Source of the DNA: Thalassovita mediterranea
GTDB taxonomy: Bacteria > Pseudomonadota > Alphaproteobacteria > Caulobacterales > Hyphomonadaceae
Direction: 5' to 3'
Length of the DNA stretch: 64,000 nucleotides
Assembly: GCA_019448215.1 (NCBI GenBank)
Contig: CP080408.1
Span: 2,790,001-2,854,000 of the forward strand
The position numbers and the translations under genes are program-made. Under the pieces are notes generated by a model. That model saw only the letters and a list, made by a program, of their open reading frames with translations, searched no databases and was not told the DNA's origin. Shown piece by piece: positions 38,873-44,215 of the stretch (position 1 is the stretch's first letter; each line of letters begins with the position of its first letter).

Positions 38873-39895
38873 ATGTTCAAGCGCCCGCGTTTAAGCGCGC
38901 AGACCTTCCCTGTCAACGCAGGGATCGCCGGTTTCCTGCTATTCTATGCTGCATCCTGCTCTGGCCCGCAAGAGCCAGCAGAACAGGGCGAACCAGCGGC
39001 CCAGGAAGAGGACGCTGTGTCTGAAACCACTGATACGGCAGCAATAAATATGTTGCCGGCTGTCTGGTCGACCCGCCAGCTCGATTCGCCGGTTGCCAGC
39101 ATCGGCGTTGCGGGCGGTGCCGGATCGACATTCGCCGTCGCCTATGACGATGGCAGCGTCCAGATTTTCGACTTCGATGGTGAACGTATCACCGAGACGA
39201 CCGGTGAAGGTACGCGCGCGCTCGCGGAGGGACGCTATGCGATGCTTGCTGGTACGCCGGTCACGATCTTCCCTGGCATCGACGCAGAGGGCAGCCTGAA
39301 AGTCTGGATCTATGGCGGCGGCGTTGCCGCGCCTATCCAGTATGATCTGCAAGGGGACCAGACCGGTCCTGCAGCGGGCATCTGTGCCGCCCCGCCTGCG
39401 GACGATGCTGATTCCACCCATCGGATTGCGTACTGGACTGAAACGGAGCCGGACACGCTCTATAATGGCGCTATTCGGGAATCGGGCGGCGAGCTTGTCT
39501 TTGAAGTCGAAGATGAGCAGACCGCCAGCGGCCCGATCACCGCCTGCGTCATCAGCGCTGACGAGGCGACGGTGTTTACGGCGCCTGTTGATGCAGCGGC
39601 CAGCCTTCGCCGTCTGGGACGCGAAACGCTGATCCTGTCCGAAGGCAATGGACGTCTTAAACTGGCCGTTGGCGACAATGAGCCGGCAACATTCGATATT
39701 CGTGAAGGCATCACGGTCGAAGTGCCGAGCATGTTTACGTCGCTGGCGGCAACGGGCGATGCGCGCGGCGGCGGCTATCCCGGCGGCGTCATCATTGTCG
39801 GCGGCACGGTCAGCGGCGACGATCACCGGGTCGTCATGATAGACCCGAGCCGCATTACGATGTCGCCGATTGAGGTTCCGACGCCGACCGAGTGA
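38873..39895 (+). CDS. Putative lipoprotein with beta-propeller-like repeats
   Basis: Protein of 340 aa not assigned to a named family. The N-terminus looks like a signal with a weak lipobox (YAASC at about 25-29), followed by an acidic, Glu/Ala-rich spacer. The rest is beta-rich, with propeller-like strands such as [21 protein letters not shown] periplasmic or outer-membrane location is inferred. ATG 38873 follows GGAG by nine bases. It starts only 36 bp from rplM on the other strand and overlaps ctaA at its 3' end by 41 bp. Confidence 0.75.
38889..38916 (-). promoter_or_regulatory. Predicted rplM-rpsI promoter inside the divergent lipoprotein gene
   Basis: On the minus strand a perfect TTGACA (38911-38916) and TTAAAC (38889-38894) are separated by 16 bases. 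The start point would fall about 45 bases before the rplM ATG. The promoter overlaps codons of the divergent gene's signal sequence. Confidence 0.65.
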
Positions 39896-40986: not shown

Positions 40987-41187
40987 ATGCGCAAACCGCT
41001 CGCGGCCATCGCAATCCTTGCCATCATTGCAATCTGGATCTTTCTGGTCGGGACAATCGGCAGCCGTATGACAGATTGGCCGTTCTGGCTCGAACTGCCA
41101 TTTTACATCATTGCAGGCGTCGCCTGGATCCTGCCTGTGCGGCCGGTCCTGCGCTGGATGAACAGCGCAGAGCCAAGCCAGGACTAG
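40987..41187 (+). CDS. DUF2842 family small membrane protein
   Basis: Protein of 66 aa with two hydrophobic segments (about 5-23 and 35-50) and the family-like end AWILPVRPVLRWM. DUF2842 proteins are small alphaproteobacterial inner-membrane proteins of unknown role. ATG 40987 is chosen from the N-terminus MRKPLAAIA. It is divergent from ctaA and its stop overlaps that of the Psd-like gene by four bases. Confidence 0.8.
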   Translation: MRKPLAAIAILAIIAIWIFLVGTIGSRMTDWPFWLELPFYIIAGVAWILPVRPVLRWMNSAEPSQD

Positions 41188-42353
41188 CGGTTTTCCTGAT
41201 CGTCATCCTCGCCAGCAAGCCGACGGGCCTGCTGGCGCAGTCGCTCGAACATGGTGGACGGGTCTTCGCCTTCATCGCTTTCAGCATTTGAGGCCGTGTC
41301 AGCGTCAGGTTCAAAGTCAGGGGTGTCCGAAACCTCTTCTGCCACCTCTGGCGGCAGCGTCTCCGGCGTTGGTTCATCACTCCAGCTGGCCTGGCTTTCA
41401 GCGACCTCTTCTTCGGCTTCAGCCTCTACTGGGGCTGGAACCACTTCCGGCGTTGGTTGCGAGTCGGCAGAGTACGCTTCGGCTTCTGGCACATCCGCTT
41501 CATCTACGGGAGCGTCTGCCTCAACGAGTTGCTCGGGCATGACCTCAGGCGACGCAGCTGCGGCGGCAGCGGCAGTCGTTGCGACCGTGGCGGTATTATC
41601 AGAATAGCTCCCGGCCGTTGCCTGCGCTGCGTAATCAGTCTGTGGTTCTGATGCGACGCTTGTGAGCGAGAGATCCCAGAGGATGGTTTCGCCGCCCGTG
41701 AGGGTACGACCCGGCTGCACGATGCAGCTGCCCGGTGAGCGCGCCGGAATGTAGACATCACACCAGCCGCCGAGCCGGCGCGTTGCGACCGTCTTGCCCT
41801 TGGCGACCCGGTCACCAGCGTCAGACTTGGTAACAAGGCGCGGGCCGAGACCGCCGGATGCAAAGACGAAACCGGCGCGGATATTGTCATTGCTGAAGAC
41901 CGCAGAGAGACGCGCAAGCCCTTCGGATTCGGCCTTCATGGCGATCACGGCCTTGGGCTCCCCCTCTGTGCACTCGATACGGTCAATGGCGCCCGCAATT
42001 GGCGCGTGAACGTTGTTGGTAGAAACGGGAGACGATGCGATGCGGATGCGGACGGTCGGACCTGCCATACGCAGCCCCTCAGGCGCTTCAGTCTCTCCAA
42101 CCGAAACGACGACGCCGTCGCAAGGCGACGTCACATGGTCGACCGACTGCGGTGTGACCCGTTCTGCCGTGCGCGTGGCAAAGAGGATGATGACGCCCGG
42201 AATGAAGCCGAGCCAGAAAAGCGGCTCCCACAGCATGGCGAGCAGGATGCCGAGCAACCATGCCGCCAGGAATCCGACAACGCCCTCAAGGTCAAAACCG
42301 CTCCTGAACCAGGGGAAGGTCTTGTGAGAAAGTGACGCGTCACGGTCTGCCAT
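41184..42353 (-). CDS. Phosphatidylserine decarboxylase-like protein lacking catalytic residues, with acidic tail
   Basis: The first 230 residues align well by eye with short-type phosphatidylserine decarboxylases: a membrane helix pair with EPLFWLGF, then AERVTPQ, SPCDGVV (Asp79 kept) and GWCDVYIP. Two residues needed for activity are changed. The Ser of the GS self-cleavage site, source of the pyruvoyl group, is Gly196, and the His before NRAP is Asn113. About 150 residues of Ala/Glu/Pro-rich acidic tail follow (389 aa in all). It lies 11 bp after the Atm1-type exporter on the same strand. Probably a pseudoenzyme with a scaffold or lipid-binding role. Confidence 0.8.
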   Translation of the reverse strand: MADRDASLSHKTFPWFRSGFDLEGVVGFLAAWLLGILLAMLWEPLFWLGFIPGVIILFATRTAERVTPQSVDHVTSPCDGVVVSVGETEAPEGLRMAGPTVRIRIASSPVSTNNVHAPIAGAIDRIECTEGEPKAVIAMKAESEGLARLSAVFSNDNIRAGFVFASGGLGPRLVTKSDAGDRVAKGKTVATRRLGGWCDVYIPARSPGSCIVQPGRTLTGGETILWDLSLTSVASEPQTDYAAQATAGSYSDNTATVATTAAAAAAASPEVMPEQLVEADAPVDEADVPEAEAYSADSQPTPEVVPAPVEAEAEEEVAESQASWSDEPTPETLPPEVAEEVSDTPDFEPDADTASNAESDEGEDPSTMFERLRQQARRLAGEDDDQENR

Positions 42354-42364
42354 GGTAGTTCCTC

Positions 42365-44215
42365 TTATTCGGCGGCAGTTGCGAGGCGATCCCTCGCAAC
42401 CTGATGCGCCCACATTTGTGCATACTTGCCATCAGAGCGCAAAAGTTCGCCGTGCGTTCCGCGCTCCAGTATTCGTCCTTGCTCGAGAACGACGATTTCG
42501 TCGGCGTTCTGCACGGTCGACAAGCGGTGCGCGACCATCAGCGTTGTGCGCCCGCGCGACGCTTCATCGAGCGCATCCTGCACAGCTGCCTCGGTTGCGC
42601 TGTCGAGAGCGGAAGTCGCTTCATCGAGGACGAGAACAGCCGGGTCAGCGAGGATGACGCGGGCGATACCGACGCGTTGCTTTTCGCCGCCAGAAAGTTT
42701 CAGGCCGCGTTCGCCGACTTCGGTCTGCCAGCCATCCGGCAGCGCTTCGATGAATGGCAGAAGTTGTGCACGGCGTGCGGCGTCCTCGAGCGCTTCGATG
42801 GAAGCGTCCGGATTGGCGTAGGCGATGTTTGCGGCGATCGTGTCGTTGAACAGGACGACATCCTGCGGGACGAGGCCCAGCGCCTGTCGCAGAGATGCCT
42901 GCGTCATGTCGCGAACGTCTGTGCCGTCGATGCGCACGCTGCCAGTCTGTACATCGTAAAAGCGGAAGAGAAGCTTTAGCAGTGTCGATTTGCCTGCACC
43001 GGATGTGCCGACAAAGGCGATCTTACGCCCCGGTGCGACGTCGAAGCTGATATCGGCGACGCCAACCGTTCGGGCATCGTGCGTGAAGCTGACGTCTTCG
43101 AAGCTCACCGCGCCTTCTGGCTTGTCGAGCTCTACCGCCTTTGCCCTGTCCTGTACTTCAGGGACCATGGCGAGAAGACCGTGAAGCTTTTCGAGATCGA
43201 CAGCGCCCTGTTTGATCTCGCGCCAGGCCCAACCGAGGATATTGAGCGGGGCATAGAGGCTGAGCAGGACGAGCATGACTGCGGTGAGGTCACCAATCTG
43301 CATCGTGCCCTGGCTGTAATTCCAAGCTGAAAGCGCCAGCACGGCCAAGAGGCCTGCATTCATGATGAAGGCCTGCACGCCGTTCAGCAGGTACATGCTG
43401 CGGACCGCTTCAACGTAGCGCTTGTTGTAGCGACGCATGGCGGTGTCATAGCGGCCTGTCTCACGCTTTTCGGCAGCGAAGGCTTTCACCGTTTCGAAGT
43501 TTGTCAGCGTGTCGATTGAGACGGCGCGAAGCTCGGTATCCGCCTTGTTCATGCGCCGACGCTGCCGCACGCGCCATTCGGTAATGATAACAGTCGCGAT
43601 GACGTAGAGAATGATCGTGACGACGGCGATCAGCGCGAGCCGATAGTCATATGCCGCGCCAAGCGCGATGGAGGCGAGCGCGAGACGGACGAAAGTCGGG
43701 CCGATATTGAAGGCGAGAAAGCGGATCAGGTAATCGATCGCGCTCGCGCCCCGCTCAATGACGCGGTTAAGCGCGCCAGAGCGGCGCGTCTGATGGAAGC
43801 CGAGGGAAAGCGATTGCGCGTGACCAAAGGCGTCGACGCAGGCGATGCGCTGAGCATCCTGGCTGACCGGGCTGAACAGCGCGTCACGCGCCTGCGGTAG
43901 CGCGGCCGCCAGAAAGCGAAGTCCGATCGCAAGCGCGATCCAGCCTATGGCAATTGCAAGCGGGGCAGCCTCCACGCCGTCTTCCCCCGCAACCCGGTTG
44001 ATCGCATCGCCGAGGATGATGGGCGAGACAACTTCCAGCACGGCTGCGCCAAGCGTCAGGATAATGGCGACCACCATGATGGGTCGCCACTTCTTCATCT
44101 CCGGACGGGCGAGGAGTTTCAGGATCTTGACGATCGCGCTACCAAGACCGCCATCGGCGCTCTCGATCCGGTCGCGGTCTGGCTGCGAAAAAGTGGGTGC
44201 GGTCATGGCTGCCAT
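42365..44215 (-). CDS. Atm1/HMT1-type ABC exporter (permease-ATPase fusion)
   Basis: Homodimeric ABC exporter half of 616 aa: a six-helix membrane domain, then an ATPase with Walker A GTSGAGKST, signature LSGGEKQRVGIARV and Walker B VLVLDEATSALD. The segment RRRMNKADTELRAVSIDTLTNFETVKAF resembles the Atm1/ABCB7 subfamily, whose bacterial members export glutathione conjugates or glutathione-metal species. A glutathione reductase is also in this window. The gene precedes the Psd-like gene and is probably co-transcribed with it. Confidence 0.88.
   Translation of the reverse strand: MAAMTAPTFSQPDRDRIESADGGLGSAIVKILKLLARPEMKKWRPIMVVAIILTLGAAVLEVVSPIILGDAINRVAGEDGVEAAPLAIAIGWIALAIGLRFLAAALPQARDALFSPVSQDAQRIACVDAFGHAQSLSLGFHQTRRSGALNRVIERGASAIDYLIRFLAFNIGPTFVRLALASIALGAAYDYRLALIAVVTIILYVIATVIITEWRVRQRRRMNKADTELRAVSIDTLTNFETVKAFAAEKRETGRYDTAMRRYNKRYVEAVRSMYLLNGVQAFIMNAGLLAVLALSAWNYSQGTMQIGDLTAVMLVLLSLYAPLNILGWAWREIKQGAVDLEKLHGLLAMVPEVQDRAKAVELDKPEGAVSFEDVSFTHDARTVGVADISFDVAPGRKIAFVGTSGAGKSTLLKLLFRFYDVQTGSVRIDGTDVRDMTQASLRQALGLVPQDVVLFNDTIAANIAYANPDASIEALEDAARRAQLLPFIEALPDGWQTEVGERGLKLSGGEKQRVGIARVILADPAVLVLDEATSALDSATEAAVQDALDEASRGRTTLMVAHRLSTVQNADEIVVLEQGRILERGTHGELLRSDGKYAQMWAHQVARDRLATAAE

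Follow-up and report, generated by a model that had tools for sequence, protein, structure and literature searches.

A predicted pseudoenzyme branch of the phosphatidylserine decarboxylase family encoded beside an Atm1-like exporter gene in Hyphomonadaceae

What role may be left for a member of the phosphatidylserine decarboxylase (Psd) family in which the residues of catalysis are replaced? The question is raised by a gene of Thalassovita mediterranea, located on the reverse (-) strand of the 64,000-nucleotide stretch of DNA that was analysed (hereafter, the window). Its open reading frame begins with ATG at position 42353, terminates with a stop codon ending at 41184 (41184-42353) and encodes a Psd-like protein of 389 amino acids, designated PSDL. 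The assignment of the product to the Psd homologues, made in an earlier note from the letters of the window, agrees with the open reading frame and with the Pfam analysis, in which PS_Dcarbxylase (PF02666) was the sole match up to E 0.1 (44.1 bits at a cut-off of 22); the same domain was matched at E 0.001 by all 68 PSDL members compared. The statement that the protein aligns closely with short-type Psd proved too strong, as a BLAST comparison with 18 true short-type psd loci gave a match to PSDL in 14, and the identities there were 26-32%. Eleven Psd-type NCBIfam models matched PSDL as well, all far under their cut-offs (the best one reached 93.8 bits versus the required 315). The closest titled relative of the window protein is that of Henriciella algicola (99% over the core).

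The catalytic site was analysed in two overlapping alignments. The first comprised 50 distinct PSDL orthologues (59 loci) and 34 distinct true alphaproteobacterial short-type Psds, the latter being mostly high-scoring matches rather than a random sample; duplicate proteins, other Psd types and one contaminant (L002, see below) were excluded from it. The second included the window protein and 67 rows from titled records (68 distinct proteins), excluding L185, truncated before the motif, and L187-L193, which are not PSDL. The position of the pyruvoyl-forming Ser, present in 34/34 true Psds, is occupied by Gly196 in 68/68 and 50/50 PSDL proteins of the second and the first set, respectively. Asn113 (codon at 42015-42017, (-) strand) replaces the catalytic His, also found in 34/34 true Psds, in 66/68 (the other two possess Thr) and 48/50 proteins. 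Asp79, the Asp of the triad, is kept in 68/68 and 50/50, as it is in the true Psds, and it was aligned even in L137, where a simple scan revealed no PxDG pattern. The GSRxD cleavage site of true Psds is degenerated to GGWCD (residues 195-199; 41757-41771, (-) strand), with G195, G196, W197 and D199 each in 68/68 proteins of the second set, Trp197 standing at the position of the Arg that follows the Ser in 34/34 true Psds. Cys198 was found in just 63/68, which makes it unlikely as a new nucleophile. PSDL has also lost the KASxxNER stretch of the 34 true Psds. Hence the replacements of both catalytic residues and the retention of Asp79 proposed in the earlier note were confirmed, and, since the substitutions are kept family-wide, a sequencing or strain-specific error is ruled out.

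In the E. coli enzyme, according to the available part of the source (PMC7952604), the H144N substitution abolished decarboxylation and the S254A protein remained uncleaved, while H144 mutants still underwent slow cleavage over time. Owing to this residual cleavage, it is the loss of the Ser that carries the argument for a pseudoenzyme. Judged by its sequence, PSDL is very probably one.

The search within Hyphomonadaceae revealed PSDL in 80 of 105 genomes, belonging to 5 of 10 genera, in one place each; the titled loci include those of Henriciella, Hyphomonas and Ponticaulis. PSDL loci in metagenome-assembled genomes titled as other phyla (e.g., L154, L163, L164 and L173) were taken as mislabelled. 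One genome (G014) contained, in addition to PSDL, a fragment of a normal Psd (G014:C150, L002) with an FGSRTD motif, continuous with a stretch judged by eye to be TatC-like; the contig measures only 5.2 kb. As a candidate second psd the fragment was rejected and taken as contamination. In the order, 44 of 249 genomes encoded PSDL, and two further genomes (G260, L099; G206, L100) possessed a different, longer Psd type, not counted as PSDL, with neither the exporter nor a pssA-model match within 12.5 kb; this type was possibly acquired horizontally. Some PF02666 match was present in 199 of 289 genomes of the class. PSDL matches in the family scored 26-52 bits with this model, as compared to 144-204 bits outside the family among the class matches listed; weaker matches occurred in the class genomes G348, G370, G375, G449 and G474. 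A PSDL profile was applied to a class sample of 385 genomes that included two members of the family; these two scored 321 and 344 bits, and none of the other matches listed exceeded 129 bits. In the phylogenetic tree a branch supported at 100/100 separated PSDL from the remaining proteins; as the program warns, long branches meet there. Taken as sequences, these proteins are a real and conserved pseudoenzyme branch of the Psd family.

Psd-like proteins with neither the catalytic His nor the GS motif were also observed elsewhere: in a gammaproteobacterial metagenome-assembled genome (L190:3962-4630, LGGVVEVYLP), where the gene is flanked by a pssA-model match and by a gene that looked ilvC-like by eye, and in L192:1761-2453 (RLARVAEVYVP). 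They may represent independent losses of Psd catalysis.

PssA makes the substrate of Psd. No second Psd homologue was found in the source genome, which consists of one contig and has a single PF02666 place; the normal psd gene for which the earlier note recommended a search was thus not found. None of the 105 family genomes exceeded the cut-off of the PssA model TIGR00473 (107 bits), weaker matches being present in 98 of them (best 40 bits), at a control in which 4 of 14 genomes were above the cut-off. A PssA profile built from four alphaproteobacteria found no PssA in the source genome and reached at best 39 bits across 150 genomes of the order (weak matches in 84); in the control performed beside psd in 18 short-type psd loci, it gave 228-320 bits in the 14 loci outside the model and 435-465 bits in the four included in it. 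The sub-cut-off matches were taken as other CDP-alcohol transferases. As for the lipids themselves, the available part of a genome paper (PMC3368421) states that the reports on Hirschia are unanimous in naming phosphatidylglycerol as the only phospholipid, and it cites a study entitled 'Lipid composition of ... Hyphomonas jannaschiana lacking in phospholipids'. For Henriciella and Hyphomonas, the accessible portions of PMC7179689 and PMC13109427 offered no lipid data of use, and among the matches listed in literature searches on the absence of phosphatidylethanolamine (PE) in Caulobacter, on Henriciella/Hyphomonas lipids and on Hyphomonas transposon data nothing usable was found. The PE pathway appears to have been lost in these marine bacteria, and very likely the hosts of PSDL do not synthesize PE.

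The AlphaFold2 model of PSDL consists of two predicted membrane helices (residues 22-41 and 43-59; 42177-42290, (-) strand; block-mean pLDDT 90-97), a mostly confident Psd-like beta domain (residues 61-228; 41670-42173, (-) strand; block means 84-97, with 76 at residues 61-70) and a low-confidence tail with a terminal helix. The PDB matches of the beta domain are E. coli PSD and EIIAGlc. All four best Foldseek matches in PDB were E. coli PSD (best E 1.8e-3, probability 0.99), with low TM-scores and none at E <= 0.001, and a PDB sequence search with PSDL returned no Psd, only one weak match at E 0.1. With VIA-align the best match was EIIAGlc (PDB 1f3g, 1gla; Z 14.3, 2.7 Å over 128 residues), E. 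coli PSD giving Z 9.4; by sequence, no PTS family was matched up to E 0.1. EIIAGlc is a regulator of an ABC transporter. When a true Psd (L187) was modelled as a control, the EIIAGlc entry matched by PSDL gave Z 13.0 and E. coli PSD 13.2. The likeness therefore belongs to the fold; no functional conclusion was based on it, and the reading of PSDL as an EIIAGlc-like regulator because of its structure was abandoned. The drop of PSDL to Z 9.4 against PSD is just suggestive, because the two models were made with different alignments.

The acidic low-complexity tail spans residues 229-379 (41217-41669, (-) strand), including the C-terminal helix 365-379 (pLDDT block means 75-81). The earlier note had recognized the tail, which in the window protein amounts to 161 residues after residue 228 with a net charge of -37, and overlooked the conserved helix at its end. 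The residues after 228 were net acidic in 68/68 rows (-2 to -38, median -19), and an [FL][ASE]RL[RK] motif was present within the last 70 residues in 59/68. It was missing or altered in the other nine, among which L148 and L157 contain near variants; none of the four Ponticaulis-type rows has it. As modelled, the tail resembles a flexible, acidic arm that carries a putative docking helix at its end.

The core of PSDL is under strong purifying selection. The Nei-Gojobori dN/dS values for residues 61-228 were 0.02-0.04 in the four closest pairs (close pairs include the window versus H. algicola, H. marina and H. barbarensis, the last with synonymous sites near saturation), 0.16-0.17 for the linker in the two close pairs where it was computable and 0.01-0.10 for the C-terminal helix region (residues 359-380) in the four closest pairs, with 0.03-0.10 in the three named ones; in more distant pairs the core gave 0.10-0.14 and the linker 0.26. 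In the PSDL alignment 22 positions are invariant at 41% mean column identity, and no internal stop occurred in any PSDL match listed from the family search. The first 60 codons (42174-42353) displayed a dS of 0.25-0.56 versus 0.33-1.9 in the core in the four closest pairs, perhaps reflecting a constraint on RNA or on a coupled start.

Ten positions were at least 90% fixed in both PSDL and true Psds with different residues, and eight of them (8/10) fall within the old active-site segments. The new fixed residues are R104, N113, G168, G170, P171, L194, G196 and W197, next to the kept D79, R172, R193, G195 and D199. Simple enrichment of the switched residues in these segments (p = 8e-5) is inflated, since Psd conservation is itself concentrated there; relative to other Psd-conserved sites the excess is modest (Fisher p = 0.013), with segments chosen by hand and sequences that are not independent.

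The gene directly upstream of PSDL (42365-44215, (-) strand) encodes an ABCB/Atm1-like exporter of 616 amino acids and ends 11 bp before the PSDL start, in accordance with the coupling to an Atm1-type exporter suggested by the earlier note; the two genes are probably co-transcribed. The exporter is a relative of the NaAtm1/ABCB exporters (PDB 4mrn; residues 47-610, 452.9 bits), other ABCB proteins scoring equally high. On its other side, the PSDL gene overlaps by 4 bp the end of a convergent DUF2842 gene. Further along, a 340-aa protein encoded at 38873-39895 has no NCBIfam match at 1e-5; its gene order is kept at 28-59% identity, and the gene overlaps that of CtaA tail to tail.

In 20/20 PSDL loci laid out, the exporter was directly upstream on the same strand and no pssA was found; the pair was intact also in the six loci where the downstream sequence, although longer than 5 kb, matched neither DUF2842 nor CtaA. 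The same arrangement occurs at genuine psd genes: the exporter was directly upstream in 4 of 34 true alphaproteobacterial loci, many of which were viewed with a flank of 1.5 kb or less, and three of the four also had pssA downstream in a longer locus. Sinorhizobium sp. K101 likewise has an exporter (50% identity) directly upstream of psd; plasmid regions of Ruegeria and Azospirillum contain psd-pssA without the exporter. A DNA similarity search of plasmids yielded 39 records, each below 60% identity, and in the best 10 of the 39 the product was annotated as Psd in six and unannotated in four. Within the order, the exporter was present in 241 of 249 genomes, only 44 of which possess PSDL, and seven loci from family genera without PSDL still contain LOG and the exporter as a pair, DUF2842 and CtaA being located at most ~4 kb away. 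The simplest history compatible with these gene orders comprises an ancestral exporter-psd-pssA operon, loss of pssA, and a psd that was rebuilt in one branch of Hyphomonadaceae and lost elsewhere. Descent of PSDL in place from psd is accordingly likely, its adjacency to the exporter was probably inherited, and horizontal arrival of PSDL beside the exporter is less likely.

Since the exporter also precedes genuine psd genes, little can be concluded from the adjacency about a new partnership, and it is possible, somewhat short of probable, that PSDL works with the exporter. Its more specific form, a membrane-tethered regulatory or accessory subunit of the exporter that would read a ligand via the rebuilt pocket and dock by the tail and the C-terminal helix, is a tentative proposal. 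About as tentative is the opposite possibility, namely that PSDL acts in the membrane by binding a lipid or another ligand, independently of the exporter, next to which its gene is placed only by the inherited operon order. It is consistent with the exporter-psd order at genuine psd genes, with the retention of the exporter without PSDL in most of the order, and with the location of the switched residues mainly in the old pocket segments, whereas the intactness of the pair in every PSDL locus laid out, even where the downstream genes were not matched, speaks against it.

A new catalytic activity, requiring no pyruvoyl group, could also be accommodated in the rebuilt pocket: the old active-site segments are tightly conserved, and among their fixed residues charged or polar ones are either kept (D79, R172, R193, D199) or new (R104, N113). 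Nevertheless, several of the gained residues are Gly, Pro, Leu or Trp, Cys198 is not invariant, and the neighbourhood suggests no substrate, so that this explanation appears improbable. Self-cleavage at a shifted site with preserved Psd function is very improbable: Asp79 is kept and the window protein contains two GS dipeptides elsewhere, one in the tail and one at residues 208-209, but the latter is variable among orthologues and lies just after an insertion seen in 7/50 of them, hence it provides no alternative cleavage site of the kind that the earlier note had considered, the catalytic His is missing, and a convincing PssA to supply the substrate was not found. A decaying relic, conceivable given the lost pathway and the family genera without the gene, is hardly credible in view of the low dN/dS of the core, the uninterrupted reading frames and the invariant positions described above.

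The reading that we favour as reasonably likely, on sequence data, is that of a conserved pseudoenzyme which arose in place after the loss of the PE pathway and would now be a membrane-anchored accessory or ligand-binding protein. The core of the earlier interpretation, a pseudoenzyme recruited to another role, is strongly supported by the family-wide substitutions, the missing second psd, the lack of a convincing pssA and the purifying selection; of the roles that it named, transporter partner is possible, whereas lipid sensing and scaffold are guesses. The proposed course of events would begin in an ancestral alphaproteobacterium, whose psd, as part of an exporter-psd-pssA operon, was probably modified in place. 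Loss of PssA would have left the ancestor of PSDL without substrate, after which the Ser of self-cleavage and the His of decarboxylation may have been replaced and the old active-site segments rebuilt. The present protein is most likely uncleaved and anchored in the inner membrane by its two helices as a binding or accessory protein; the rebuilt pocket may have a ligand that is not phosphatidylserine, and a partner, for which the exporter is the first candidate, may be reached by means of the acidic linker and the C-terminal helix.

PSDL shares with short-type Psd (PF02666, PRK05305) the homologous core, the pair of N-terminal helices seen in the model of either protein, the Asp and, in some species, the exporter neighbour. 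It differs in the loss of the pyruvoyl Ser, the catalytic His and KASxxNER, in the added acidic tail and C-terminal helix, in the lack of a convincing pssA and in scores under every matched NCBIfam Psd cut-off. No description of a dead Psd was found in the literature searched, wider searches being judged by title among the matches listed. A comparable protein is the AdoMetDC prozyme of Trypanosoma brucei, which, according to the available part of the source (PMC5201418), is likewise a catalytically dead paralogue of a pyruvoyl-dependent decarboxylase. The prozyme works with a living paralogue, whereas in the genome with PSDL no other Psd homologue was found.

As PSDL passes the Pfam cut-off for Psd, automatic annotation could credit its hosts with a PE synthesis that is very probably absent. 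PSDL, a member of a pyruvoyl enzyme family, has seemingly outlived its whole pathway, having been rebuilt instead of lost, with no active paralogue to serve, and the exporter common across the order gains in it a candidate partner. Taken together, the data suggest that an old Psd protein was given a new job.
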